64,000 nucleotides of DNA from Streptomyces sp. SN-593 (GTDB lineage: Bacteria; Actinomycetota; Actinomycetes; Streptomycetales; Streptomycetaceae): positions 558,001 through 622,000 of the forward strand of contig NZ_AP018365.1 in the NCBI RefSeq assembly GCF_016756395.1, read 5' to 3'. The position numbers were made by a program, and so were the translations under genes. The stretch's first letter is position 1, and every line of letters starts with the position of its first letter. The notes under the pieces were generated by a model that was not told where the DNA came from, ran no database searches, and saw only the letters and a list, made by a program, of their open reading frames with translations. Shown here one piece after another: positions 41,970 to 64,000 of the stretch.

Positions 41970-44900
41970 TCACACCAGCGGCGCCTCCCCGTACGGCGTG
42001 AACTGCACCGGCCCGATCAGCCCGTACGGCTGCGGCGCCATCGTGCCGTACACCGCCGGGTCGGACACCCGCAGGCGGTTGCCGAGCGTGGTCGCCACCT
42101 CCACCTCGATGGTGTTGGCGCCGCGCCGCAGGTACCCGCCGAGGTCGACCACGGGGTGGATGTGGTCGACGGGGGCGAGCCGGTGGCCGTTGACGGTCAC
42201 CCGGCAGGTGTCGTACACCGTGCCCAGGCTGAGGTAGGCGCCGTAGCCGCCGCTCCAGGGGCCGTCGAGCTGGACGGTCGTGCGGTAGGTGCCGATCCCG
42301 GAGGCGTCGGCGATGTCCGGCAGGGTGGGCCAGGCGGCCAGCGCGTCGAGGGAGAGGCTGTGGCGGACGACCGAGGTCGTGGTGGCCGTGGCTCCGGGCT
42401 GCCAGTCCTCGACGTCGAGCTCCCACCGCGTCAGCGTAGTGGGCTGCGGTATCCCGCTCAGCGTGCTGTGCGTCGTTCCGCCCTTGGACAGCGTGGTGGT
42501 GTACCTGCCGTCGGCGGTCGCGCGGACCACCAGTCGCCCGTCCACGAAGAGCGCTTCCTGCGCGTCGGTGGTGACCGCGTGCGCGTCCTTGGCGTTGCGG
42601 TCGCCGAACAGCCCGGGGGCCCCGACCGCGACCACCATCGTCTCGCCCGGCTGGAGGGTGACGCGGAAGGTCACCGAGCCGTCCTTCCCCTCGGTGTACC
42701 GGCCGATCCGGGTGATCTCGCCGGTCCACAGGTCCAGCAGGTAGGGCACGTCGCCGGAGCGCTGCCGCGGCAGCGTCACGTCGTGGTCGATCGCCGCGAC
42801 CGGCGGCTTGACGGTCTCGGCGTGCTTGCCGTTGCAGAAGTAGTAGTAGTCCACGCCGCCCGCGTACCGGTGGGCGTTGAGCAGCGTGGAGCCGGTGGAG
42901 TACGAGACGTACGGCGTGACGCCCAGGTCGTCGAGCGCGGTGGGGATCTGCGTGAGGTCGCTGAGCACCCGCACCCGCGGCTGCGCCAGGAGCTGCGCCA
43001 TGACCGCGGCCAGCCGGGCGTTCTGGCCGCCGGGGTCGACGCCGGGGATGCTCGGGGCGGACCAGTCACCGAGCAGGATGATCGGCAGGCCCGCCTTGGT
43101 GAAGGCGAGGAACTTCTCGGCGGTGGCGACCGACAGCGTGATGTCCATGCCGGAGAAGCGGTCGCCCTCGACGAAGATCGCCTGGTACGCCGGGCCGTTC
43201 GCGGCCAGCTTGCCGCCGGTGACCTTGGCCGAGGGCAGGCTGAGCAGCGGTTCGCTGATGAAGGAGTGGTTCCAGCCGAGGGTGATGCCCGTCGCGGTGA
43301 ACCAGGACGTGCCGATGCCGGTGTCCACGTAGCCGGTCTGCCGGAAGACCGCCACGTCGATGCGCGGCTTCCCGGTCTGGAGCACCTTGTGGATCCGCGA
43401 GAGGTAGCCGGACATGTCGGTGATGTGGCGCCAGGTGGGCTGCCGCGGCCCCCACGCCTCGGCGTAGCCGACGGCCCCCTTGTACGGCGTGAAGGCCGCG
43501 TAGCCGGGCCACTGGACGCCGGGCAGCTCAGCGTAGGAGAAGCCGTGGATCACCGTCTGGTTGACCCCGGCGGCGTAGGCGCCGCCCATGGTGAGCAGGA
43601 ACTTCTGCCAGGTGGTGTTGTAGGCGCCGCCGGTGTACGCGCCCGACTCGCAGGACAGGATGGTGGTGCCCGCCATGTCCCGGCCGCCGGTCATGCTGCG
43701 GTAGTCGTCCAGGTTGTGGAAGCCCAGCGACTCGCCCTCGGGGATGTCGAGGATCGCGGAGGTGTACGTGGCGTCGGTCTGGAGGCCGTACGGCTGGGCG
43801 CGCAGCTTCAGGCCGAGCGCGTTGGCCCACTTCTTGACGGCCGTGGCGTGTTGCGCGTTGTAGAGGTCGGACAGGGTCTGCCAGTAGTCGTGCTGGATCT
43901 CGCGGGTCAGCCGGGGCTCGAAGGAATACGCCTGGTTGCCGCCGCTGACCAGCAGGGTCGGCAGGTAGGGCAGCAGCGCGTAGCCGCGCCGCCGGGAGAA
44001 CTCCGCCAGGACCTGCGGCGTCCACAGCAGCGACTTGCTCTCCAGCTCGATGGAGTCCTCGAACAGGGCGCCGCCGGCTTTGGAGATGAGCCGGCGCACC
44101 GGCTTGGTCAGCAGGTCCGACTCCCAGAAGTCGGTGATCGCGCGGGTTCCGACGGTGCTGAAGTGGTCGACCACGTAGGCGGCGGGCACCGTGTGCGGAC
44201 CGGCCTCCGGGGTCTGGCCCACGCCGCGCTGCCAGTACGCGAACAGCAGCCAGGTGCCGTCGGCGGGCGCGGTCCAGGAGATCTGCGCGCCGACGCCGGC
44301 GTCGGTGGACCTCCACGTGCGGGACCCGGTGACGCGGCCGGTCAGGTCGGTCACCGAGCCGGCGTCCAGACCCGTCAGCTTGGTGGTGCTGTAGGCGGTG
44401 TCCACCCGCACGGCCTGCACGGCCACGAGGGTCTGCCGGGTGACGGTGCTCGCGGCGGCGGCCAGCGGGGCCGGCACGGCGCCCTGGTACGTCGCACCCG
44501 CGGCCACGGACACGAAGCCGTGGGCGAGTTCCTGGAGCGCGCCCTCGCTGTCCGGGGTGATGGTGGGGACGGCGGCGGGCCAGGCGGGGCCGATGGTGAT
44601 GTCGACGGTCAGGCCGCGCTTGTCGGCCTGCTCCAGCGCCGCTTCCATGCCGGCGATCCACGACGGGCTGCCCCAGCCGTGGTGGGCGGTGTCGAGCACG
44701 GAGGTGTCGTCCACGCTGTGGTGCACCGCGGAGATCTCGACGCCGCCGAAGCCCGCGTCGGCGATCTGGTCGATCTCCCGGCGCAGTTCGGCGGTCTCGA
44801 CCAGGCCGTCCGGCCACCACCAGCGGAACTTCGGCTGGAGCGGGCGGTCGGGGGCCGCCAGCCAGCCCGCCGCGGCCGAAGCGCCCCCCGAGTGCTTCGC

Positions 44901-45146
44901 GGTCGCCGCGACGGCGTGCGCGTTCGCGTTCGCCGACGGGCTGGCCTGTGCGGCTCCGGCCGCCGCGCCCCAGGACAGGGCGGTCATCGCGCCCGTCGCC
45001 GCGCCGGCCTGGAGGACCCTCCGCCGTGTGAGCCGGTCCGCGCCCGCCCGCTCCGGCTGCTCCTGCCGCTCCGGTCGCGCCGCGCGCTCCGGCTGCTCCT
45101 GCCGCTCCGGTCGCGCCGCGCGCTCCGGCTGCTCCTCAACGCCCAT
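41970..45146 (-). CDS. GH106-type alpha-L-rhamnosidase, Tat-exported
   Basis: 1058 aa. The mature start K-F-R-W-W-W-P-D-G-L-V and I-A-D-A-G-F-G-G-V-E-I-S are the GH106 opening. A long (alpha/beta)8 catalytic region follows (D-F-W-E-S-D-L, A-E-F-S-R-R-R-G-Y-A-L-L-P-Y-L-P, S-C-E-S-G-A-Y) and C-terminal beta domains end in N-T-I-E-V-E-V-A-T-T-L-G-N-R-L-R-V. It would remove terminal L-rhamnose from plant or microbial glycans outside the cell. Export is by Tat (L-T-R-R-R-V-L-Q-A-G-A-A). The 35 residues before the Tat motif are an E-Q-P-E-R repeat from a 36-bp tandem repeat, unusual for a signal peptide. TGAA-N4-TTCA operators upstream tie it to the rhamnose regulon. Confidence 0.9.
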   Translation of the reverse strand: MGVEEQPERAARPERQEQPERAARPERQEQPERAGADRLTRRRVLQAGAATGAMTALSWGAAAGAAQASPSANANAHAVAATAKHSGGASAAAGWLAAPDRPLQPKFRWWWPDGLVETAELRREIDQIADAGFGGVEISAVHHSVDDTSVLDTAHHGWGSPSWIAGMEAALEQADKRGLTVDITIGPAWPAAVPTITPDSEGALQELAHGFVSVAAGATYQGAVPAPLAAAASTVTRQTLVAVQAVRVDTAYSTTKLTGLDAGSVTDLTGRVTGSRTWRSTDAGVGAQISWTAPADGTWLLFAYWQRGVGQTPEAGPHTVPAAYVVDHFSTVGTRAITDFWESDLLTKPVRRLISKAGGALFEDSIELESKSLLWTPQVLAEFSRRRGYALLPYLPTLLVSGGNQAYSFEPRLTREIQHDYWQTLSDLYNAQHATAVKKWANALGLKLRAQPYGLQTDATYTSAILDIPEGESLGFHNLDDYRSMTGGRDMAGTTILSCESGAYTGGAYNTTWQKFLLTMGGAYAAGVNQTVIHGFSYAELPGVQWPGYAAFTPYKGAVGYAEAWGPRQPTWRHITDMSGYLSRIHKVLQTGKPRIDVAVFRQTGYVDTGIGTSWFTATGITLGWNHSFISEPLLSLPSAKVTGGKLAANGPAYQAIFVEGDRFSGMDITLSVATAEKFLAFTKAGLPIILLGDWSAPSIPGVDPGGQNARLAAVMAQLLAQPRVRVLSDLTQIPTALDDLGVTPYVSYSTGSTLLNAHRYAGGVDYYYFCNGKHAETVKPPVAAIDHDVTLPRQRSGDVPYLLDLWTGEITRIGRYTEGKDGSVTFRVTLQPGETMVVAVGAPGLFGDRNAKDAHAVTTDAQEALFVDGRLVVRATADGRYTTTLSKGGTTHSTLSGIPQPTTLTRWELDVEDWQPGATATTTSVVRHSLSLDALAAWPTLPDIADASGIGTYRTTVQLDGPWSGGYGAYLSLGTVYDTCRVTVNGHRLAPVDHIHPVVDLGGYLRRGANTIEVEVATTLGNRLRVSDPAVYGTMAPQPYGLIGPVQFTPYGEAPLV
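45051..45136 (-). repeat. 36-bp tandem repeat coding the N-terminal E-Q-P-E-R repeats
   Basis: Two full 36-bp units (45051-45086, 45087-45122) and a partial third, within the 5' end of the rhamnosidase gene. In-frame copy changes would lengthen or shorten the segment before the Tat motif. Confidence 0.92.
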
Positions 45147-51922: not shown

Positions 51923-52822
51923 ATGCCGAGTCCTCCGTCCGTCGCGATCACCGAGTTCCCCGTCCCCGACCGGGCCGCCGGACCCTACGGCATCACCGCC
52001 GGACCGGACGGAGCACTGTGGTTCACGCTGGTCCACCGGGGAGGGATCGGCCGCATCGCCACCGACGGCACCCTCACCGTCCACCCGCTCGAACCGGCCT
52101 CCGGCGGGCCGTCGGTCATCACGGCGGGGCCCGACGGCGCGCTGTGGTTCACCGAGTTCCGCGGCCACCGGATCGGCCGCATCACCACGACCGGCGACCG
52201 CACGTCGTTCCGGCCCCCGACGCCGGACTGCGGCCCCTACGGCATCACCGCCGGCCCCGACGACGCGCCGTGGTTCACCGAGGCCGGAGCCGACCGGATC
52301 GGCCGCATCACCCCCGCCGGGCAGATCACGGAGTTCCCCCTCCCGCTCGCGGGCGCCTTCCCGTCAGCCATCGCCGCCGGCCCGGACGACCGGCTGTGGT
52401 TCACGATGAACCAGGCGAACGCGATCGGCGCCCTCGGACGCGGCGGCGACGTCACCGTGCACCCGCTGCCCACCCCGGGCGGCGCTCCGGTCGGCATCAC
52501 GGCCGGCGCCGACGGAGCCTGCTGGTTCACCGAGATCGGCGCCGGCCGGATCGGGCGGATCACGCCGGACGGGACGATCGACGAGTTCGCCCTGCCCGAC
52601 CCCGCGGCACGCCCGCACGCCATCACGGCCGGCACCGACGGAGCCTGCTGGTTCACCGAGTGGGGAGCCGACCGCGTCGGCCGGATCACGCCCGACGGCC
52701 GGATCGACGAGCACGACCTCCCGGGCCCGGGGTCGGAACCACACGGCATCGTGCAAGGGCCCGACGGCGCGCTGTGGACCGCTCTGGAGATCGGGACGAT
52801 CGCCCGCCTCACGACACGCTGA
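51923..52822 (+). CDS. virginiamycin B lyase-like (streptogramin B resistance)
   Basis: 299 aa, a seven-bladed beta-propeller with repeats of the form G-I-T-A-G-P-D-G-A-L-W-F-T. Vgb enzymes linearise streptogramin B antibiotics by an elimination that needs Mg, not by hydrolysis. H232 and H274 lie 42 residues apart, the same spacing as the two catalytic histidines of Vgb, and E289 sits near the expected Glu. Length agrees with the family. It follows the MarR gene at 135 bp in the same direction. Many propellers with this repeat have other roles, so resistance is likely but not certain. Confidence 0.85.
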   Translation: MPSPPSVAITEFPVPDRAAGPYGITAGPDGALWFTLVHRGGIGRIATDGTLTVHPLEPASGGPSVITAGPDGALWFTEFRGHRIGRITTTGDRTSFRPPTPDCGPYGITAGPDDAPWFTEAGADRIGRITPAGQITEFPLPLAGAFPSAIAAGPDDRLWFTMNQANAIGALGRGGDVTVHPLPTPGGAPVGITAGADGACWFTEIGAGRIGRITPDGTIDEFALPDPAARPHAITAGTDGACWFTEWGADRVGRITPDGRIDEHDLPGPGSEPHGIVQGPDGALWTALEIGTIARLTTR

Positions 52823-53108: not shown

Positions 53109-53122
53109 TGACAACGTTGTCA
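53109..53122. promoter_or_regulatory. furanoside operator O1, TGACAACGTTGTCA
   Basis: A perfect 14-bp palindrome with the CAACGTTG core, 526 bp upstream of the GtaA-like start. A TATACG box follows at 53126. The rest of 52823-53647 carries no recognised gene. Confidence 0.8.
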
Positions 53123-53351
53123 GACTATACGCCGTCCGCGCCGCCCGTGGATACCCCTCAGGAGCCCCGCATCCCGAGTCAGGCTCGCCCCGGGGGAGGC
53201 GGCATACGCCGGCAGAGGGGCGTCGGCCCGGCCCTGTCCACGCGACCGTGCGCATCGGTCCCCCCGCCGGCCCGCACGGCCCGTACGGCCCGTACGGCCC
53301 GCCGGGGAGCGCTCCCCCGGGCCCGTCCGCCGGCATCCCGGGCCGATCGGT

Positions 53352-53369
53352 TTTACTCACGTTGTAAAG
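53352..53369. promoter_or_regulatory. furanoside operator O2, right arm GTTGTAAA
   Basis: TTTACTCACGTTGTAAAG keeps a perfect right arm and a shifted left TTTAC, so it is weaker than O1. Confidence 0.6.
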
Positions 53370-53526
53370 CCCACCGCGGGCCGCCCCGAACGGACTCCGC
53401 CGCACGTCGCGGGCCTGCGGTGGGACAGGAGGGACGCCTGTTCAACGGCCGGACCGCGGAGGCCACTTCTGCGCGGGGTATGGACAGGCCCCACGCCAAG
53501 TGCTGTCATGCCGGTTGGCGCCAGCC

Positions 53527-53541
53527 TTTCCAACGTTGAAG
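53527..53541. promoter_or_regulatory. furanoside operator O3, core CAACGTTG
   Basis: TTTCCAACGTTGAAG, core palindrome perfect, 107 bp before the GTG of the GtaA-like gene. Confidence 0.7.
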
Positions 53542-53647
53542 AACCCGAAGATCCCGGGCAACGGGCCCCCACGGCCCCTGCTCCCCCCTGCGCGTGTCCC
53601 GCACTTCCGTCCCCCCTCCGCGCCCTTCTTCGCAGAAACGGATCACC

Positions 53648-56266
53648 GTGACATCCGACGACACCCGCTCCCCCCACCCCGGTCGCCGCGAACTGCTCAA
53701 GTGGAGCGGCGCGTTGACCGCGGCCGCCGCGACCGGAGGGTGGTTCGCCGCGGGCCCGGCCGCCGCCGCGTCCGCCGGCGCCACGCCCGCGGCGGCACCG
53801 CTCGACGCGCACGCCGCGGCCGCGGCCGCCTCCACGTTCGCGCCGCTGCGGCCGCCGGCGGTCCCGCTCGCGGTCCGCTCGCCCTACCTGTCCACCTGGG
53901 TGGCCGCCGACAACCTCGCGGGGACCTGGTCCAGCTTCTGGAACGGCCACGTCACCGCGCTGTGCGGCCTCGCCCGGATCGACGGCACCGGCTACGTCTT
54001 CGCCGGCTCGCCCAACCTGCCCGCCGGCCCGGCGCTGACCACGATGCAGCAGCTCTCCCTCCAACTCACCGCCACCCGCTCGATCTACCAGGTGAGCGGC
54101 GGCGGGGTGACACTGACCGTCACGTTCTTCTCCCCCGTCGACCTCGGCAACCTCCAGCGGCAGTCCGTGCCGCTGTCGTACGTGACGGTGCAGGCGCAGA
54201 GCAACGACGGGAAGGCGCACGCGGTGGACGTGCACCTGGACGTGTCCGGCGAGTGGGTACACGGCGACACCTCGACGCAGATCACCTGGGCGCAGCAGCA
54301 GGCCGGCTCGATGACGGTGCTCACCGCGCAGCCGGCGGCGCCGGGCGTGCTCCAGGAGCACGGCGACCAGGCGTCGTGGGGGCAGTTGGTGTTCGCCGCG
54401 ACCGGCTCGGGGCTGACCTGGCAGATCGGGCAGGACACGGTGGTGCGCGCCGCGTCGGCCGGCGGCGGCCGGCTGGCCGGGACGGTGGACGGCGCACAGC
54501 CGCGGGCGATCAGCGACCGCTGGCCGGTGCTGGGGCTGAACCGCGACTTCGGCACCGTCAGCCCGGGTACCGCGTCGGCGGAGTTCACGGTGACGCTCGG
54601 GCATGTGCGGACCCCGGCGGTGAGTTACCTCGGCACGCAGTTGCAGCCGTGGTGGACGCACTACTGGTCGTCGTGGACGGACATGGTGCAGTGGTTCGAC
54701 GCCGACCACGCGGCGGCGCTGTCGGCGATGACGGCGCTGGAGCAGCGCATCCACGACGACGCGGTCGCCGCGGCCGGGGGCGGGACCACCGGGGACCACT
54801 ACGCGGCGGTGTGCGCGCTGGCGCTGCGGCAGGCGGTGGCGGGCACCGAGCTGGTGGACCGGGGCGGCAGCCCGTGGGCGTTCCTGAAGGAGATCTCCTC
54901 CGACGGCAACATGTCCACGATCGACGTGACGTATCCGGCCTTCCCGGCGTACCTGTACCTGTCCCCCGCCTACCTCCGGCTGCTGCTGGAGCCGCTGCTC
55001 GACTACGCCGAGCACGGCGGCTGGCCGAAGGGGTTCGCCGAGCACGACCTCGGTTCGTCGTACCCCAACGCGGCCGGGCACAACGACGGCAACGAGGAGG
55101 ACATGCCGGTCGAGGAGTCGGCGGACATCCTGGTCATGGCGGCGGCGGTGGTCCAGCGGCTGTCCGCGGCGGACGCGGCGTCGTTCGCCACCACCCACTA
55201 CACGATCCTGCGGCAGTGGGCGGAGTACCTGGTGTCCAACGCGCTGGACCCGGGGTACCAGAACCAGACCGACGACTTCACCGGCTTCATCGCGCACAGC
55301 GCGAACCTCGCGCTCAAGGGCATCGTCGGGATCGGCGCGATGGGCGTGGTGGCGCGGGCGGCGGGCAACGGCGCCGACGCCGCGCGGTACGCGACGCTCT
55401 CGCGCAGCTACATCAGCCAGTGGACGACGCTCGCGGCGGACTCCTCGGGCAAGCACCTCAAGCTCGCCTACGACCAGGACGGCACCTGGAGCCTGAAGTA
55501 CAACGGCTTCGCCGACAAGCTGCTCGGCCTGGACCTGGTGCCGACCGGGACCGCGGCGGCGGAGGCGTCCTGGTACGCGGCGAACGCGGGCGCGTACGGG
55601 GTGGTCCTGGACCCGCGCAACGACTACACCAAGGCCGACTGGGAGGTGTGGACCGCGGCGTGGCTGTCCGACCACGGCCCCACCCGTGACGCGCTGGTGA
55701 ACGGGGTGTACGGGTACGCGGGCGCCACGCCGCAGCGGGTGCCGTTCAGCGACTGGTACACGGTGGCGAGCGCGGCGCAGCGCGGCTTCCAGGATCGGCC
55801 GGTGGTCGGCGGGATGTTCGCGCTGGCCCTGCGGCCGGCGTCCTCGACCGTGGTGTGGTGCCGCATCCAGAACCGGAACTCCGGGAAGGTGCTGGCCGTC
55901 TCGGGGATGTCGCTGGCGGACTCGGCCGAGGTCACGCAGTACACCGACAACGGCACCGCGGACCACGTGTGGACGCTGCTGGACAACGGCGGCGGCACGG
56001 TGCGGATCGTCAACCGCAACAGCGGGAAGGTGCTGGCCGTCCACGACCAGAGCCTGGACGACGGGGCGCACGTCCAGCAGTACCAGGACAACGGGACCCC
56101 GGACCACGTCTGGCGGATCGTCGACAACGGGGACGGCTGGTCGAAGATCGTCAACGTCCGCTCGGGCAGGCTGCTCGCCGTGGACGGCGCCTCCACCGCC
56201 GACAGCGCGCAGGTCACGCAGTGGAACGACAACGGGACCACCGACCACCTGTGGCGCATGATCTGA
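53648..56266 (+). CDS. GtaA-like six-hairpin enzyme with ricin-type lectin repeats
   Basis: 872 aa from a GTG at 53648. Tat signal G-R-R-E-L-L-K-W, then a beta-sandwich region (DUF5127/DUF4965-like) and a six-helical-hairpin domain (A-F-P-A-Y-L-Y-L-S-P-A-Y-L, A-E-H-D-L-G-S-S-Y-P-N, D-M-P-V-E-E-S-A-D). This architecture was named from fungal glutaminase A, but related bacterial proteins lie in glycoside loci and may be glycosidases. Residues from about 737 are three ricin-type beta-trefoil repeats (I-Q-N-R-N-S-G-K-V-L-A-V, Q-Y-T-D-N-G-T-A-D-H-V-W), a carbohydrate-binding module shared with the next gene. Activity is inferred. Confidence 0.85.
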   Translation: MTSDDTRSPHPGRRELLKWSGALTAAAATGGWFAAGPAAAASAGATPAAAPLDAHAAAAAASTFAPLRPPAVPLAVRSPYLSTWVAADNLAGTWSSFWNGHVTALCGLARIDGTGYVFAGSPNLPAGPALTTMQQLSLQLTATRSIYQVSGGGVTLTVTFFSPVDLGNLQRQSVPLSYVTVQAQSNDGKAHAVDVHLDVSGEWVHGDTSTQITWAQQQAGSMTVLTAQPAAPGVLQEHGDQASWGQLVFAATGSGLTWQIGQDTVVRAASAGGGRLAGTVDGAQPRAISDRWPVLGLNRDFGTVSPGTASAEFTVTLGHVRTPAVSYLGTQLQPWWTHYWSSWTDMVQWFDADHAAALSAMTALEQRIHDDAVAAAGGGTTGDHYAAVCALALRQAVAGTELVDRGGSPWAFLKEISSDGNMSTIDVTYPAFPAYLYLSPAYLRLLLEPLLDYAEHGGWPKGFAEHDLGSSYPNAAGHNDGNEEDMPVEESADILVMAAAVVQRLSAADAASFATTHYTILRQWAEYLVSNALDPGYQNQTDDFTGFIAHSANLALKGIVGIGAMGVVARAAGNGADAARYATLSRSYISQWTTLAADSSGKHLKLAYDQDGTWSLKYNGFADKLLGLDLVPTGTAAAEASWYAANAGAYGVVLDPRNDYTKADWEVWTAAWLSDHGPTRDALVNGVYGYAGATPQRVPFSDWYTVASAAQRGFQDRPVVGGMFALALRPASSTVVWCRIQNRNSGKVLAVSGMSLADSAEVTQYTDNGTADHVWTLLDNGGGTVRIVNRNSGKVLAVHDQSLDDGAHVQQYQDNGTPDHVWRIVDNGDGWSKIVNVRSGRLLAVDGASTADSAQVTQWNDNGTTDHLWRMI

Positions 56267-56315
56267 CCCGCGCCGCAGCCCCATCCCCCCACTTCCCCGA
56301 GCAGGGAGCACGTCC

Positions 56316-59192
56316 ATGGATCGTCGTACCTTCCTTCGAGGCGGCGCCGCCGCCCTCGGCACCGTGGCGTTCGCCGGCCGCATGGTCACCTCCTCCTGGG
56401 CCGCCGGCGGCGGCCCGGGGGTGGTGCTGGTCGGCGACACGTCCGGCGGCGGCCTGTACCACCCGTATCCGGCGGGGCTGACCCGCACCCCGTTCCTGAA
56501 GCTGCCCACGGGCAGTGTCACCGCGTCGGGCTGGCTGGCGCAGCAACTCGCCCTGGAGGTCGACGGGATCGCCGGCCGCTACGACGAGGTGTCGCACTTC
56601 CTGGACACCTCGACCACCGGCTGGTTCCACCCGTCGCAGGTCGGCTGGGAGGAAGTGCCGTACTGGGTCCGGGGGTTGACCTCGCTCGCCGGGGTGACCG
56701 GGGACGCGGGCCTGCGCGCGAAGGCCGACACGTGGGTGAACGGGGTACTGGCGACGGGGCAGTCGGACGGCTTCTTCGGACCGACGTCGCTGCGCACCTC
56801 GCTCGGCGGCGGGCCGGACTTCTGGCCGTTCATGCCGATGCTCCAGGCGCTGTGCACCTACCAGGAGTACACCGGTGACAGCCGGATCGTGCCGTTCCTG
56901 ACGAAGTTCTTCGGCTACCAGAACACGTTCGGCGCCTCGGCGTTCAACCAGAGCTGGGGTTCGGTGCGGTGGGCGACGACGCTGCACGCGCTGCACTGGC
57001 TGTTCGCCCGGACCGGGAGCAGCGCGCTGCTGGGGCTGGCGGACAAGATCCACCAGTACGGCGCGAACTACGTGGACAACCTGCCGTCGCTGCACAACGT
57101 GAACCTGGCGCAGGGCTTCACCGAGCCGGCCTTCGCCGCGCTGCGCGGGAACGCGGCGCTGACCCAGGCGACCTACCAGGACTACGCGACGATCCAGGGC
57201 ACCTACGGGCAGTTCAGCGGCGGCGGGTTCGCCGGCGACGAGAACGCCCGCCCCGGGTACGGCGATCCGCGGCAGGGCTTCGAGACCTGCGGGATCGTGG
57301 AGTACATGCAGAGCTTCGAGTCGATGGTGCGGATGACCGGCGACCCGAGCTGGGCCGACGGCACCGAGACGCTGGCGTTCAACTCGCTGCCGGCCTCGAT
57401 GGAGCCGGGCCACACCTCGCTGCACTACGCCACCGCGGCGAACCAGGTGCAGTTGGACGACTACGACAAGACGCTGCACCAGTTCGACAACACCTTCTCG
57501 ATGCAGGCGTACCTGCTGGGCGTCGACAAGTACCGCTGCTGCCCGCACAACTACGGCCAGGGGTGGGCGTACTTCACCGAGAACGCGTGGCTGGCGACGG
57601 CGGACAACGGGCTGGCCGCGGTGCTGTACGCGCCGACGAAGGTGACCGCGAAGGTCGGCTCGGCGGGCACCGCGGTGACCGTCACCGAGACCACGAACTA
57701 CCCGTTCACCGACAGCGTCTCGCTGGTGCTGGCGCTGTCCGGCAGCGTGGCCTTCCCGCTCTACCTCAGGGTCCCGGCCTGGTGCGGCAAGCCGTCGGTG
57801 AAGGTCAACGGGACCTCGGTGGGCGCGTCGGGCGGCGCGGGCTTCGTGGCGGTGAACCGCACCTGGAAGAACGGCGACACGGTCGCCGTCTCGTTCCCGA
57901 TGGAGGTCGCCACCACCACCTGGACGCAGAACCACGACGCGCTGTCGGTGCACCGCGGCCCGCTGACGTACTCGCTGCGGATCGGCCAGAACTTCCTGCG
58001 GACCGGTGACACGTCCTCGCACTGGGCGGAGTACGAGGTCTTCCCGACCTCGGCGTGGAACTACGGCCTGGTGCCCGGCACGTTCACGGCCACCACCACC
58101 GGGGCGAGCGGCAACCCGTTCACCCCGGAGGGCACGCCGGTGGCGATGACCGCGCAGGCCCGGCCGATCCCCAACTGGCAGGCGGACACGCAGGACGTGG
58201 TGTCCACGCTCCAGCCGAGCCCGGTGGCGACGTCGGAGCCGGCCGCCACGGTGACGCTGATCCCGATGGGCGCGGCCGCGCTGCGGATCACCTCCTTCCC
58301 CACCGTCGGTTCCGGCGGCCGCGAGTGGCAGCTCCCGGCCACCCCGTCGGCCTCCTGGTGCTGGTCGGGCGACACCGTGAACGCCCTCAACAGCGCCTAC
58401 ACGCCCAGCAGTTCCTACGACCAGTCGCACCCGCGGTTCACCTGGTGGGACCACACGGGCACCAGCGAGTGGGTGCAGTACGGCTACGCCGCGCCGGTGA
58501 CGGTCTCGGGAGCGTCGGTCTACTGGTACGACGACACCGGGCACGGCCAGTGCCGGGTGCCGGCCTCCTGGCACGTGGAGTACCAGGCCGGGGACGGGTC
58601 GTGGCGGCAGGTGTCGGGCGCGGGCGCGTACGGCACGGCGGTGAACGGCTTCAACGCGGTGTCGTTCACGCCGGTGACGACCAAGGCGGTGCGGGTGGTG
58701 GCGCAGCTCGCGCCGGGGGTGTCGGCGGGCATCCTGCAATGGGACGTGACGGCGCGTCAGGCGGCGGTGGCGGCCGGCACCTGGTACCGGGTGCAGAACA
58801 AGAACAGCGGCAAGGTGCTCGGGGTGGACGGCATGTCGACGGCCGACAGCGCGAACGTCGTGCAGTTCACGGACAACGGGACCGCGGACCACGACTGGCA
58901 GTTCACCTCGGCGGGCGACAACCGCTTCACCGTGAAGAACCGCAACAGCGGGCTGCTGCTGGCCGTCGCGGGCGCCTCGCAGGCCGACAGCGCGCAGGTG
59001 CAGCAGTACCACGACAACGGGACGGCCGACCACTACTGGCACCTGGTCGACAACGGTGACGGCTGGTTCCGGATCCGCAACGGCAACAGCGGCCTGGTGC
59101 TGGGCGTCGACGGCATGTCCACCGCCGACAGCGCGAGGGTCGTCCAGTTCGAGGACAGCAGGACCGACGACCACCTGTGGCGCTTCCTGTAG
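56316..59192 (+). CDS. GH127 beta-L-arabinofuranosidase-like enzyme with ricin-type lectin repeats
   Basis: 958 aa, Tat-type start M-D-R-R-T-F-L-R-G-G. The alpha/alpha-barrel of GH127 is complete, and its zinc-cysteine site can be read: E323-T-C325 (matching the E-x-C of HypBA1) and C408-C409 in Y-R-C-C-P-H-N, one of which is the catalytic nucleophile. A galactose-binding-like domain and a C-terminal trefoil (V-Q-N-K-N-S-G-K-V-L-G-V, Q-F-T-D-N-G-T-A-D-H-D-W) follow. It would release L-arabinofuranose outside the cell, taken up by the importer encoded next. It lies 49 bp after the GtaA-like gene. Confidence 0.9.
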   Translation: MDRRTFLRGGAAALGTVAFAGRMVTSSWAAGGGPGVVLVGDTSGGGLYHPYPAGLTRTPFLKLPTGSVTASGWLAQQLALEVDGIAGRYDEVSHFLDTSTTGWFHPSQVGWEEVPYWVRGLTSLAGVTGDAGLRAKADTWVNGVLATGQSDGFFGPTSLRTSLGGGPDFWPFMPMLQALCTYQEYTGDSRIVPFLTKFFGYQNTFGASAFNQSWGSVRWATTLHALHWLFARTGSSALLGLADKIHQYGANYVDNLPSLHNVNLAQGFTEPAFAALRGNAALTQATYQDYATIQGTYGQFSGGGFAGDENARPGYGDPRQGFETCGIVEYMQSFESMVRMTGDPSWADGTETLAFNSLPASMEPGHTSLHYATAANQVQLDDYDKTLHQFDNTFSMQAYLLGVDKYRCCPHNYGQGWAYFTENAWLATADNGLAAVLYAPTKVTAKVGSAGTAVTVTETTNYPFTDSVSLVLALSGSVAFPLYLRVPAWCGKPSVKVNGTSVGASGGAGFVAVNRTWKNGDTVAVSFPMEVATTTWTQNHDALSVHRGPLTYSLRIGQNFLRTGDTSSHWAEYEVFPTSAWNYGLVPGTFTATTTGASGNPFTPEGTPVAMTAQARPIPNWQADTQDVVSTLQPSPVATSEPAATVTLIPMGAAALRITSFPTVGSGGREWQLPATPSASWCWSGDTVNALNSAYTPSSSYDQSHPRFTWWDHTGTSEWVQYGYAAPVTVSGASVYWYDDTGHGQCRVPASWHVEYQAGDGSWRQVSGAGAYGTAVNGFNAVSFTPVTTKAVRVVAQLAPGVSAGILQWDVTARQAAVAAGTWYRVQNKNSGKVLGVDGMSTADSANVVQFTDNGTADHDWQFTSAGDNRFTVKNRNSGLLLAVAGASQADSAQVQQYHDNGTADHYWHLVDNGDGWFRIRNGNSGLVLGVDGMSTADSARVVQFEDSRTDDHLWRFL

Positions 59193-59285
59193 GAGCGGCC
59201 GCGCGGGGCGAGAGGGGGAGCGCCGGCGGCGGAGGCACCACCGCCGGCGCCCGTCAGTGGATCGCACTACGGCGGCGCGCCGGGG

Positions 59286-59301
59286 CGTACAACGATGTAA
59301 A
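59286..59301. promoter_or_regulatory. furanoside operator O4
   Basis: CGTACAACGATGTAAA, near-palindrome centred at 59293/59294, in the spacer before the importer genes. Confidence 0.7.
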
Positions 59302-59391
59302 GCCGGGCAGGGAAATGACAGCACGGCAGCGGGACCGTGTCCACCCCGCGCGGCAAAGAAGCCCGGGTTCAGGCGGAGTCGTACCGGACTC

Positions 59392-59420
59392 TTGACACGT
59401 GGACGTCAATCCCCCAGGGT
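59392..59420 (+). promoter_or_regulatory. candidate promoter of the importer operon
   Basis: TTGACA at 59392-59397 and CAGGGT at 59415-59420 at 17 bp spacing. The -10 is weak. Operator O5 follows directly. Confidence 0.5.
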
Positions 59421-59422
59421 CC

Positions 59423-59438
59423 TCTACATCGTTGTAAA
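59423..59438. promoter_or_regulatory. furanoside operator O5
   Basis: TCTACATCGTTGTAAA, centre at 59430/59431, 137 bp from O4, just downstream of the candidate promoter. Its placement suits repression of the importer operon. Confidence 0.75.
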
Positions 59439-59539: not shown

Positions 59540-60652
59540 ATGAACGTCTCCTTCCGGGCCAGGACCGCCGCCGCGGTACTCACCGCCGGCCTGTGCCTGG
59601 CCGCGAGCGCCTGCACCAACTCCGGCAACGACTCTTCCGGTTCGGACAAGGCCGCGGCCACGGACAACACCGCGGCCGCCCAGCAGACCGCCTCGCCCAC
59701 GGCCGGCGCCGACGGCCCCGCCTGCACCTACCAGACCTACGGCGGCGGCGTCCCGAAGCTGGACATCACCGACGGCAAGACCATCGTCGGGTTCTCCCAG
59801 TCCGAGTCGACGAGCAACCCCTTCCGCGCCACCGAGACCAAGAGCATCGAGGCGGAGGCCAAGGCCAAGGGCGTCAAGCTGATCGAGCGGAACGCCAACG
59901 CGGACGTCAACGCGCAGAACTCGCAGATCGAGGACATGATCGCGCAGGGCGCCAAGGTGCTGATCGTGGCGCCGGAGAACTCCGACGGGCTCGGCCCGGC
60001 GCTCGCGCAGGCCAAGTCGAAGAAGATCCCGGTGCTCACCATCGACCGGACCGTCACCGGCACCGCCTGCGGCGACTTCGTCGCGTTCATCGGCTCGGAC
60101 TTCTACGGGCAGGCCCAGATCGCCGCCGACGACCTCGGCACGGCGACCGGCGGCACCGCCCACGTCGCGGTCCTCACCGGGACGCCGGGCAACAACGTCT
60201 CGACCGACCGGACCAAGGGCTTCGACGACGAGGTCAAGAAGAAGTACCCGAACATCAAGGTCGTCGCCTCGCAGACCGCCAACTTCACCCAGACCGACGG
60301 CCAGAAGGTGATGGAGCAGCTCCTCCAGGCCCACTCGGACATCAACGCGGTCTACGCGGAGAACGACGAGATGGCGCTCGGCGCGCTCCAGGCGATCAAG
60401 TCCGCCGGCAAGACCCCGGGCAAGGACATCAAGGTCGTCTCCATCGACGGCACCCAGCAGGCGGTCCAGGACGTGGCGTCCGGCGCGCTGGTGGCCGACA
60501 TCGAGACCAACCCGCGGTTCGGCCCGCTGGCGATCCAGTCGCTGGTGGACTTCTACGGCACCGCGGGGGTGTCCGCGAACGTCATCATCAAGGACGGGCA
60601 CTTCACCGCGGACAACGCCAAGCAGGCGCTCTCCCAGGGCCTGGTGTACTGA
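59540..60652 (+). CDS. furanose-binding lipoprotein, YtfQ type
   Basis: 370 aa. Lipobox L-A-A-S-A-C at residues 15-20. The mature protein is a type-I periplasmic-binding fold with YtfQ-like markers: G-F-S-Q-S-E-S-T-S-N-P-F-R, I-V-A-P-E-N-S-D-G-L-G, G-T-P-G-N-N-V-S-T-D-R, F-T-Q-T-D-G-Q-K-V-M-E and Y-A-E-N-D-E-M-A-L-G-A. YtfQ of E. coli binds galactofuranose; here, with arabinofuranosidase-type enzymes upstream, L-arabinofuranose or another furanose is likely. Expression should follow the CAACGTTG-core operators. Confidence 0.9.
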   Translation: MNVSFRARTAAAVLTAGLCLAASACTNSGNDSSGSDKAAATDNTAAAQQTASPTAGADGPACTYQTYGGGVPKLDITDGKTIVGFSQSESTSNPFRATETKSIEAEAKAKGVKLIERNANADVNAQNSQIEDMIAQGAKVLIVAPENSDGLGPALAQAKSKKIPVLTIDRTVTGTACGDFVAFIGSDFYGQAQIAADDLGTATGGTAHVAVLTGTPGNNVSTDRTKGFDDEVKKKYPNIKVVASQTANFTQTDGQKVMEQLLQAHSDINAVYAENDEMALGALQAIKSAGKTPGKDIKVVSIDGTQQAVQDVASGALVADIETNPRFGPLAIQSLVDFYGTAGVSANVIIKDGHFTADNAKQALSQGLVY

Positions 60653-60762: not shown

Positions 60763-62469
60763 TTGGTCCAGCAGGACCCGGACCCCCGCAGCGACGCCGT
60801 CCTGGAGGTGGCGGGGGTGGACAAGAGCTTCGCGGGCGTCCACGCCCTGCGCGAGGTGGACTTCACCCTGCGGCCCGCCGAGGTGCACGCCCTGATCGGC
60901 GAGAACGGCGCGGGCAAGTCCACCCTCATCAAGGTGATGACCGGCGTGCACCGTCCCGACGCCGGCACCGTACGACTCGCCGGGCGGGCACGGGAATTCC
61001 GCCACCCGCTGGAGGCCCAGGCCGCCGGCATCTCCACGATCTACCAGGAGGTCAACCTCGTCCCGCTGATGTCGGTGGCCCGCAACCTGTTCCTGGGCCG
61101 CGAGCCGCGCCGCTTCGGGCTGGTCGACCACGGCCGGATGAACCGCGAGGCGTCCGAGGTGCTGGGCCGGTTCGGCGTGCGGGTGGACGTCACCCGCCCG
61201 CTGCGCACCCTCGGGCTCGGCGCCCAGCAGATGGTCGCGCTGGCCCGGGCGGTGCAGATCGACGCCCGCGTGGTGATCATGGACGAGCCGACCTCCTCCC
61301 TGGAGCCGAAGGAGGTCGAGACCCTCTTCTCGGTGATCCGCGGCCTGAAGGAGCAGGGCATCGCGGTGGTCTACGTCAGCCACCGGCTCGACGAGCTGTA
61401 CGCCGTCTGCGACCAGGTCACCGTCATGCGCGACGGCCGCGTGGTGCACACCGGGCCGATCGCCGGCCTCGAACGCCTCAAGCTGGTGTCCCTGATGCTG
61501 GGCCGGGAGATGTCCGCGGTCCGGGACAAGGGCACCACCGCCTTCGACTCCGACGGCCACGAGCGGCAGGACGGCCAACCCGCCCTGCGCGCCCAGGATC
61601 TGACGGTACGCCACCGACTGCACGGCGTCTCGCTCGACGTGCACCCGGGCGAGGTCGTCGGCTTGGGCGGTCTGCTGGGCGCCGGACGCAGCGAGACCGC
61701 CAAGGCGATCATCGGGGCGCTCGCCACCGAGCAGGGCACGGTCGAGGTCGAGGGCAGCACGCTGCACCGGCGCAGCCCGGCCGCCGCGATCCGCGCGGGC
61801 GTGGTGATGCTGCCGGAGGACCGCAAGGCCGAGGGGGTGATCCCGAACCTGTCGGTGCGGGAGAACATCTCGCTGGCCGCGCTGCCCCGGCTCTCGCGGG
61901 CCGGCCTGGTCTCGCAGGCCAAGCAGGACGAGATCGTCACGTTCTTCATGGAGCGGCTGCGGATCAAGGCGTCCGGGCCGGACCAGAAGGTCGGCGACCT
62001 GTCCGGCGGCAACCAGCAGAAGGTGCTGCTGGCCCGCTGGCTGTGCCTCAACCCGAAGGTGCTGCTGCTCGACGAGCCGACCCGCGGCATCGACGTCGGC
62101 GCGAAGGCCGAGGTGCAGGGCCTGGTCGACGAGTTGGCCCGGGACGGCCTGGGGGTGCTGCTGATCTCCTCGGACCTGGAGGAGCTGATCGAGGGCTCGG
62201 ACCGGGTGGTGATCCTCAAGGACGGCCGTGTCGTCGGCCACCTCGCGGGCGACGACGTCACCGAGGACGGCCTGCTGGACGCGCTCGCCACCGCCCCGGA
62301 GGCATCCGCGCCGCCCGGCCCCGACGCCGCGGACACCTCGGACGCCGCAGCCGTCGCGGACGCACCGGACGCCGCGGACGCCCCGGACGCGACCGCCGAA
62401 CCCGACGAACCCGCGGACCCGGCAGCGCCGGCGGATCCCGCGCACCCCGCCAAGGAGACGCACGCATGA
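60763..62469 (+). CDS. furanose ABC transporter ATPase, two ABC domains (YtfR type)
   Basis: 568 aa from a TTG at 60763, chosen because AGGAGGA lies six bases before it. Domain 1 has Walker A G-E-N-G-A-G-K-S-T and Walker B V-V-I-M-D-E-P-T; its signature is degenerate (L-G-A-Q-Q). Domain 2 has a modified Walker A (G-L-L-G-A-G-R-S-E) and a good signature L-S-G-G-N-Q-Q-K-V. This asymmetry is normal for the sugar-importing CUT2 family. The last 65 residues are an Ala/Asp/Pro-rich tail not seen in the family. Confidence 0.92.
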   Translation: MVQQDPDPRSDAVLEVAGVDKSFAGVHALREVDFTLRPAEVHALIGENGAGKSTLIKVMTGVHRPDAGTVRLAGRAREFRHPLEAQAAGISTIYQEVNLVPLMSVARNLFLGREPRRFGLVDHGRMNREASEVLGRFGVRVDVTRPLRTLGLGAQQMVALARAVQIDARVVIMDEPTSSLEPKEVETLFSVIRGLKEQGIAVVYVSHRLDELYAVCDQVTVMRDGRVVHTGPIAGLERLKLVSLMLGREMSAVRDKGTTAFDSDGHERQDGQPALRAQDLTVRHRLHGVSLDVHPGEVVGLGGLLGAGRSETAKAIIGALATEQGTVEVEGSTLHRRSPAAAIRAGVVMLPEDRKAEGVIPNLSVRENISLAALPRLSRAGLVSQAKQDEIVTFFMERLRIKASGPDQKVGDLSGGNQQKVLLARWLCLNPKVLLLDEPTRGIDVGAKAEVQGLVDELARDGLGVLLISSDLEELIEGSDRVVILKDGRVVGHLAGDDVTEDGLLDALATAPEASAPPGPDAADTSDAAAVADAPDAADAPDATAEPDEPADPAAPADPAHPAKETHA

Positions 62470-63431
62470 CCTCCCTCACCTGGCCGGGCGCGGCCCTGGA
62501 CCGCGGCCGGCTGCTGCGGCTGCTCCAGGAGTACGGCGTGTACGCCGCGCTGGTCGTCCTGTTCGCCGTCGCGGTCGGCCTCGACAGCTCCTTCCTGTCG
62601 ACCGGCAACATCCGGGTCCAGCTCTACCAGGTCGCCCCCACGCTCCTGGTCGCGCTCGGCATGTCCCTGGTGATCGGTACCGAGGGCATCGACCTGTCGG
62701 TGGGCGCCACGATCGCGCTCGCCGCCTCGGTGGTGCCGCTGTACGCCGGCTACGGCCTGTTCGCCGCACTCGCGATGGCACTGCTGCTGGGCGCGGCCAC
62801 CGGCGCGGTCGGCGGCGCCATGGTCGCCTTCGCCCGGGTCCAGCCGATCGTGGCGACGCTGTCGCTGATGATCGGCGTCCGCGGCCTCGCCGAGATCGTC
62901 AACGGCAACTCGGCCAAGCCGATCACCCAGTCGGGTCTGCTCGACCTCGGCTCGCGCACCCTCGGCGGCGTCCCCGACATGGCCTGGATCGCCGGGGTCT
63001 GCGCGCTGCTGACCGGGCTGCTGGTGCGCCGCACCACCTTCGGCCGGCAACTCGTCGCGATCGGCGACAACCGGCAGGCGAGCCGGCTGTCGGGCCTGCC
63101 GGTGCGGCGGGTGCTGATCACCGTCTACGTGCTGTCGGGCGTGCTCGCCGCGCTCGCCGGCGTGCTGATCGTCGGCCACGGCGCGGAGGCCGACCCGGCC
63201 AACCAGGGCCTGAACATGGAACTGGACGCCATCACCGCGGTCGTGGTCGGCGGCACCCCGCTGTCCGGCGGCCGGGTGCGGGTGCTGGGCACCGTCGCCG
63301 GCGCGCTGTTCATGCAGCTCATCACCGCCGTGCTCACCCAGCACAACGTGCACACCTCCTACACCCAGATCGTCGAGGCCGCCATCATCTGCTTCGCGGT
63401 GTACGCCTCCCAGGAGCGAGGGACCCGATGA
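62466..63431 (+). CDS. furanose ABC transporter permease 1 (YtfT/RbsC type)
   Basis: 321 aa, ATG overlapping the ATPase stop. About eight to ten membrane segments, with the family's G-I-D-L-S-V-G-A-T-I-A-L near residue 75 and V-V-V-G-G-T-P-L-S-G-G-R near the end. It forms the pore with the following permease. Confidence 0.92.
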   Translation: MTSLTWPGAALDRGRLLRLLQEYGVYAALVVLFAVAVGLDSSFLSTGNIRVQLYQVAPTLLVALGMSLVIGTEGIDLSVGATIALAASVVPLYAGYGLFAALAMALLLGAATGAVGGAMVAFARVQPIVATLSLMIGVRGLAEIVNGNSAKPITQSGLLDLGSRTLGGVPDMAWIAGVCALLTGLLVRRTTFGRQLVAIGDNRQASRLSGLPVRRVLITVYVLSGVLAALAGVLIVGHGAEADPANQGLNMELDAITAVVVGGTPLSGGRVRVLGTVAGALFMQLITAVLTQHNVHTSYTQIVEAAIICFAVYASQERGTR

Positions 63432-64000
63432 CTTCCACCGCCCTCCAGCCGACCCCGGCGCCGCCGGCCGCGTCCGACGGGCAGGCCGCGCGGGTCCCGG
63501 TCCGCGAGCGGATCGCCTCCCAGGTGCAGCGGCACGGCGCGCTGGCCGTCCTGGTCCTCGTGGTCGCCATCGCCTCCGCGACCTCCTCGACCTTCCCGAC
63601 CTGGAACAACATCAGCAGCATCCTCGGCAGCAACGCCTTCGTGTGGCTGCTGGCGCTCGGCATGACCTTCGTCATCATCACCGGCGGGATCGACCTGTCG
63701 GTCGGCTCGATGTTCGCGCTCGGCGGGGTGCTGGGCGCCTACGGCTCGCGGCACGGCACCTGGCTGGCGATCCTGCTGCCGCTGGCGGTCGGCGCGGCCT
63801 GGGGCACCGTGCAGGGCCTGCTGATCGCGTACGCGCGCATGGCGCCGTTCATCGTCTCGCTCGTCGGCCTGCTGGGCCTGCGCGGGCTGTTGCAGGCCGT
63901 CACCAGCGAGGGCGCGACCACCTACCTGGTCCCGGCCCACTCGTGGTTCCGGCACCTGGGCGCGGGCACCTGGACACCGGTGCTCGTCGTGGCGGCGCTC
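63428..64000 (+). CDS. furanose ABC transporter permease 2, partial (right edge)
   Basis: 191 residues in the window; ATG overlaps the previous stop. Markers: V-I-I-T-G-G-I-D-L-S-V-G-S-M-F-A-L and a run of hydrophobic segments. Two permeases with one ATPase and one binding protein is the YtfQRT-YjfF arrangement. The gene continues beyond the window. Confidence 0.92.
   Translation, partial: MTSTALQPTPAPPAASDGQAARVPVRERIASQVQRHGALAVLVLVVAIASATSSTFPTWNNISSILGSNAFVWLLALGMTFVIITGGIDLSVGSMFALGGVLGAYGSRHGTWLAILLPLAVGAAWGTVQGLLIAYARMAPFIVSLVGLLGLRGLLQAVTSEGATTYLVPAHSWFRHLGAGTWTPVLVVAAL

Follow-up and report, generated by a model that had tools for sequence, protein, structure and literature searches.

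Local sugar repressors of the LacI/GalR family, such as those of the CytR, RbsR and GalR type, combine a helix-turn-helix (HTH) domain with a Peripla_BP_3 domain, are encoded in a sugar operon and have a palindromic, CG-centred operator over the promoter start; a LacI repressor in a sugar operon is thus a known kind of arrangement. In E. coli, the importer YtfQ-YtfR-YtfT-YjfF consists of one binding protein, one double ATPase and two permeases. Galactofuranose is a sugar of fungal cell walls, borne there by mannan. It is present in moulds such as Aspergillus but not in mammals, and ORF1110 of JHA19 releases galactose from the galactomannan of A. fumigatus (both according to the accessible part of PMC4560423), a polymer on which the PA14 enzyme of JHA26 also acts (PMC5391426). 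For JHA19 ORF1110 and JHA26 ORF0643, two GH2 beta-D-galactofuranosidases of Streptomyces, no regulator is given in PMC5391426, and the words "regulator" and "repressor" are absent from the accessible part of PMC4560423. Here we describe a locus of the soil bacterium Streptomyces sp. SN-593, lying at the right end of a stretch of 64,000 nucleotides (the window; C1:558001-622000 of the 8.97 Mb genome, positions without the prefix C1 being those of the window), in which a local LacI-family repressor probably runs galactofuranose scavenging, and in which a pair of genes for GtaA-like and GH127-like secreted proteins is probably also under a mannan repressor through one operator, O1.

The original prediction recognized five operators with a CAACGTTG core in a furanoside regulon, O1-O3 before the GtaA-like gene and O4-O5 before the importer, and supposed that the regulator, found nowhere from 53 to 64 kb, might lie beyond the right edge. 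A scan for the LacI HTH agrees with this absence: among 36 matches in the genome none lies within 53-64 kb, the window's own two being near 6.8 and 30.5 kb, and one begins just past the window edge. Indeed, when the sequence was extended rightward, a LacI-family gene of 341 aa was found at C1:622542-623567 (+), starting 542 bp past the edge, behind the gene for the YjfF-like permease 2 of the importer and followed by an aldose 1-epimerase gene. Its product has both the LacI HTH (PF00356, 62.2 bits against a cut-off of 27) and Peripla_BP_3 (PF13377, 125 bits). The closest named relative, from Actinacidiphila yanglinensis, is 96% identical, and the recognition helix [VIA]KTVSNVVN is found in all 80 loci of the best 80 relatives kept from 400. 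The two LacI genes inside the window were considered as regulators of O1-O5 and rejected; their recognition helices differ, and neither of the two operator patterns described below is found beside them. Separately, this genome's nearest LacI paralogue (43% identical) lies between two TTGCATCGATGCAA palindromes, both exact (L068:4023 and 5315; C1:4500023 and 4501315), and has a divergent GH2 gene beside it, representing a third, related operator code.

All five sites are present in the sequence and are placed as predicted, but the common core is not general: exact CAACGTTG occurs twice in the window, in O1 and O3 only (0.39 expected; 7 of 100 shuffles reach two), and O4 and O5 each carry one altered half (CAACGATG and CATCGTTG, respectively). 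The five do not form a single set, either. O3 (53527-53542, TTTCCAACGTTGAAGA), O4 (59286-59301, CGTACAACGATGTAAA) and O5 (59423-59438, TCTACATCGTTGTAAA) match TTTnCAWCGWTGnAAA (the TTTnC class), to which the importer LacI is assigned, and the mismatches to TTTACAWCGWTGTAAA number one in O5, two in O4, three in O3 and four in O1. O2 (53351-53369, TTTTACTCACGTTGTAAAG) matches less surely, being an imperfect palindrome of one good half (ACGTTGTAAA) and one shifted half; as a putative repressor site it is uncertain, with the constancy of the half-site as its support. O1 (53109-53122, TGACAACGTTGTCA) fits another class, found at alpha-mannan genes and at another LacI gene, with no mismatch to TGACAWCGWTGTCA. 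In the window, three sites lie within three mismatches of TTTACAACGTTGTAAA, compared with none in 100 shuffles; the whole genome has 10 such places and none for the reversed pattern, and a looser 14-mer gives 20 places versus none reversed, so that genome-wide the motif is far above chance.

The two sites before the importer are arranged around its putative promoter, TTGACA-17-CAGGGT (59392-59420, +), in which TTGACA (59392-59397) and CAGGGT (59415-59420) are separated by a 17 bp spacer and O5 starts 2 bp further. A generic sigma-70 scan called no promoter here, and the assignment rests on the position before O5 and on the conserved -35 box. Such a box, matched in at least five of six bases, stands near the proximal operator in 44 of 68 upstream regions, versus 6 of 68 when 45 bp are reversed. 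O5 would be expected to cover the transcription start, the classic position of a repressor, and O4 lies 137 bp upstream of it.

LacI relatives were sought in named genomes, and among the 80 loci kept (L142-L221), the 71 with a detected binding-protein gene and at least 350 bp upstream were used (nine were dropped). Of the 71, 67 carry at least one operator in the 700 bp before the importer and 58 at least two, whereas the reversed-pattern control finds one in a single locus. The upstream regions hold 125 sites in 49 kb, compared with 33 in 1,355 kb elsewhere, and upstream sequence resampled at order 1 holds 0.06 sites on average and two at most. The loci come from related species and are not independent; those with two sites, together with the window, fall into 17 clusters at 90% LacI identity. 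In the window's own genus, 20 loci were read, and a site lies within about 700 bp upstream in 16 of the 17 where the binding-protein gene was found. When the three closest species are aligned, the O4 core, TTGACA and O5 are invariant islands; inside diverged sequence, the good half of O2, ACGTTGTAAA, and all of O3 but some bases at its flanks are invariant too. O1 is present in all three as well, upstream of GtaA in the two closest relatives (L102 and L103), with the window copy put in other columns by the aligner. Within the genus, sites at most one mismatch from TTACAWCGWTGTAA are absent from the six genomes that have no LacI relative (E <= 1e-60) and present in 13 of the other 29. The operator has drifted in many relatives, which leaves this pattern suggestive but weak. 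In the Streptomyces clade (within L142-L221), the LacI is about 75% identical to that of the window and the importer binding protein about 50-55%, the repressor being better conserved than the operon. The distances between paired operators in the upstream regions of L142-L221 include groups of 166-169 and 178-180 bp, about one helical turn apart, with none between. Over the 17 clusters, Rayleigh values looked low, but the 179 bp spacing is repeated; once every spacing is given roughly a single count, p is about 0.05 for the best period between 10 and 11.5, so the spacing is suggestive of looping but statistically weak.

O1 leads to a second regulator. TGACAWCGWTGTCA occurs exactly in six copies in the genome, with none reversed and about 0.009 expected from the base composition of the window, and across the genus it is present in 30 of the 35 genomes, again with no reversed copy. 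At one mismatch there are 16 places of this TGAC class: seven at six GH92 genes, one at a GH76 gene, one at a GH130 gene, one before the gene for another LacI protein (L140), and O1 itself; the remaining five stand at genes for a lectin-domain protein and a PAP2-domain protein, within a PA14-GH2 reading frame or at no clear target. The L140 LacI gene (C1:7762004-7763026) is divergent from a ROK gene and has relatives in all 35 genomes, and every one of the 30 loci fetched has a TGACAACGTTGTCC site beside the L140-type gene, at a distance constant within 1 bp. The two operator classes are paired with two recognition helices, GLKTVSRVVN in the L140 LacI and [VIA]KTVSNVVN in the importer LacI; at the position of a G in the TGAC class, 96% of the TTTnC half-sites carry T. 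By analogy with LacI structures, the helix position occupied by Arg or Asn would contact this operator base. Because O1 is a perfect match to the TGAC class, the class stands at the L140 gene and helix and base are so paired, O1 most likely belongs to the L140 regulator and not to the importer LacI, as read from these patterns. This regulator with its TGACAWCGWTGTCA class is what we take to be a possible counterpart of SsManR, reportedly the mannose/mannobiose regulator of Streptomyces sp. SirexAA-E (Ohashi et al., 2021), and may already have been described under that name. The 2021 mannose paper on SirexAA-E is cited in the accessible part of PMC10766802. An exact TGACATCGATGTCA site is also found at L046:5146 (C1:8039146), within the reading frame of the PA14-GH2 protein and in the part that separates its two domains, either by chance or as an intragenic operator.

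The TTTnC regulon extends beyond the window to at least four distant loci. Sites of this class stand at a second GtaA-like gene (GtaA2) and its divergent GH2 gene (two sites), at an MGH1-like hydrolase gene (two sites), at the PA14-GH2 gene and at a GH43 gene, and in relatives they recur at GtaA2/GH2, MGH1-like and GH43 genes. Of the 10 genome places near TTTACAACGTTGTAAA, eight are found beside the importer, beside GtaA genes or beside genes for other glycoside hydrolases, the exceptions being C1:7956260, of the TGAC class, and C1:2082300.

That these genes serve furanosides is well supported. Three subunits of the importer, though below the cut-offs, are nearest to galactofuranose families among the named ones of NCBIfam (equivalog scores over the whole importer of 182 of 510 bits for YtfQ, 581 of 850 for YtfR, 194 of 363 for YjfF and 157 of 535 for YtfT), and the operator class stands at a beta-D-galactofuranosidase homologue: the best solved match of the PA14-GH2 protein (L046) is beta-D-galactofuranosidase 2 (9j6n, E 6.7e-156). 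A homologue of this protein that adjoins an importer also matches beta-D-galactofuranosidase 2. Aligned with 6hbd, with residue numbers counted by hand, the binding protein keeps an Arg/Asp pair, and such a salt-bridge pair is tied to furanose binding in the accessible part of PMC10191376. The GtaA-like protein has the GtaA domain set and may be a glycosidase. With this fit data in the accessible part of PMC9668830, where a glycosidase probe labelled a DUF4964/5127/4965 protein whose Streptomyces relative had no glutaminase and weak beta-galactosidase activity.

The same regulon and repressor might instead serve L-arabinofuranose, from arabinan or arabinogalactan. The GH43 family includes arabinofuranosidases, and so, by its Pfam name, does GH127; the models for AraG and AraH come next in score to those for galactofuranose, and GafA/YtfQ-type proteins bind both sugars (PMC10191376, accessible part). 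This alternative counts against galactofuranose, but we hold it to be unlikely, as a regulon member matches a beta-D-galactofuranosidase, three of the four subunits find their best NCBIfam models in YtfQ, YtfR and YjfF, and in relatives the operator stands at mannan-acting GH76 and GH92 genes, which fits fungal galactomannan. As to the protein bound, O1 and O3 share CAACGTTG and have the same gene downstream, as if the importer LacI alone bound all five sites and the difference of O1 were ordinary operator degeneracy. This is improbable in view of the perfect match of O1 to a separate class at alpha-mannan genes and another LacI gene, and of its G at the base where the TTTnC class so strongly prefers T. 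That the sites are real but bound by some LacI protein of the 36 other than their neighbour is conceivable with so many candidates and with paralogues in relatives (L254 and L269) that have TTACAACGTTGGAA-like sites beside their own genes; however, the LacI gene travels with the importer and operators across genera, the same helix is kept in 80 of 80 loci, and the nearest paralogue here (L024) has a different site of its own, TTGCATCGATGCAA, all of which makes such a mismatch of regulator and site very improbable. Chance matches are hardly credible: CAACGTTG alone is near chance in the window, but the enrichment over reversed-pattern and shuffle controls holds genome-wide and across species, and the conserved islands and the cross-species data already speak against chance for O4 and O5.

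Several observations weigh against control of galactofuranose scavenging by the importer LacI. Four of the 71 loci have no site upstream of the importer, and in the same genus L121 and L115 have none near importer or LacI. The TTTnC-class site at C1:2082300 is near no carbohydrate gene, and several sites lie a little way into the longest reading frame that their gene allows, the true starts being assumed further in. In relatives, TTTnC sites also stand at GH65, GH31 and GH3 genes, and at GH76 and GH92 genes, so that the two regulons are not cleanly separate everywhere. All importer subunits fall under the NCBIfam cut-offs, and in the PDB the binding protein best matches 2ioy, a periplasmic sugar-binding protein other than YtfQ.

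Galactofuranose scavenging under the importer LacI remains the probable reading, and it can be put as follows. The locus would begin at 53.6 kb and continue for about 3 kb beyond the right edge, with the repressor encoded in the importer operon. Without inducer, LacI would sit on the TTTnCAWCGWTGnAAA operators; at O5, which overlaps the predicted start of the importer transcript, it would block transcription, with O4 reinforcing repression there, and O3, probably with O2, would act on the GtaA-GH127 promoter. The same protein would be expected at at least four distant loci, namely the divergent GtaA2/GH2 pair and the genes for the PA14-GH2 beta-galactofuranosidase homologue, the MGH1-like hydrolase and GH43. 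Galactofuranose set free from glycans and then imported, or its product, would bind the LacI sensor domain and lift repression, and the aldose 1-epimerase encoded beside LacI may help to feed the sugar into catabolism. Because O1 is assigned to the L140 LacI, whose TGAC operators mark alpha-mannan genes, two inputs would meet at the GtaA-GH127 pair, one from mannan and one from galactofuranose, which together make up fungal galactomannan. Only tentatively would we go on to a fungal-galactomannan programme, in which the GtaA-like "glutaminases" are galactofuranosidases and the GtaA-GH127 promoter reads the mannan repressor at O1 and the galactofuranose repressor at O2/O3.

The genes of the locus all lie on the forward strand. 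The GtaA-like secreted protein (53594-56266, start probably at the GTG at 53648 by inspection) carries PF16335 (E 1e-135), PF17168 and PF16334 with a ricin-type lectin domain (PF14200); an AlphaFold2 model on a nine-sequence alignment reached a mean pLDDT of 52.5, too low for a fold search. The GH127-like secreted protein (56316-59192), also with a ricin-type lectin domain (PF14200), has both the catalytic and middle domains (PF07944, 101 bits; PF20736, 75 bits), and its sole NCBIfam match, aceric acid hydrolase, is far under cut-off (80.6 of 950 bits). The importer comprises the sugar-binding protein (59540-60652; nearest YtfQ among named families), the ATPase (60799-62469, start approximate; nearest YtfR), permease 1 (62511-63431, start approximate) and permease 2 (63428-64000, cut by the window edge and ending at C1:622444; nearest YjfF), and the aldose 1-epimerase gene follows the LacI gene at about C1:623873-625057, beyond the window. 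Just upstream of the GtaA region is a gene of the virginiamycin B lyase family (51923-52822, +; PF24684, E 1e-139), possibly for streptogramin resistance. A secreted GH106-type alpha-L-rhamnosidase (41970-45146, -; PF17132) and the LacI gene near 30.5 kb represent a separate sugar locus.

A search of open-licence PMC papers found no LacI regulator of galactofuranose use in actinomycetes, no account of the reach of a galactofuranose regulon or of its overlap with the mannan code, and, for the LacI/GalR local repressors, neither the operator TTTnCAWCGWTGnAAA nor a galactofuranose regulon; galactofuranose is not mentioned in the accessible part of PMC12772271 on Streptomyces sp. SirexAA-E. Enzymes and sensors for galactofuranose would be useful reagents because the sugar occurs in moulds and not in mammals. 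The main difference between the operator codes is a single base in each half-site (G versus T), and that between the helices is Arg versus Asn at one position, so one substitution could separate or merge the regulons, and this near-identical pair is a natural test case for the avoidance of cross-talk between LacI paralogues. Compared with the named NCBIfam LacI models, the importer LacI is under every cut-off (best CytR, 188 versus 436 bits), while it shares with the local repressors their domains, operon position and operator form. The importer resembles YtfQ-YtfR-YtfT-YjfF of E. coli in its composition and in the best models for three subunits, whereas its permease 1 is closer to permeases for ribose and arabinose. 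The PA14-GH2 protein shares the layout of the GH2 beta-D-galactofuranosidase ORF0643 of Streptomyces JHA26. The regulon joins a known type of beta-galactofuranosidase with GtaA-like, GH127-like and MGH1-like proteins, which suggests that GtaA-like "glutaminases" act on galactofuranosides and gives a doubtfully named family a concrete candidate substrate.

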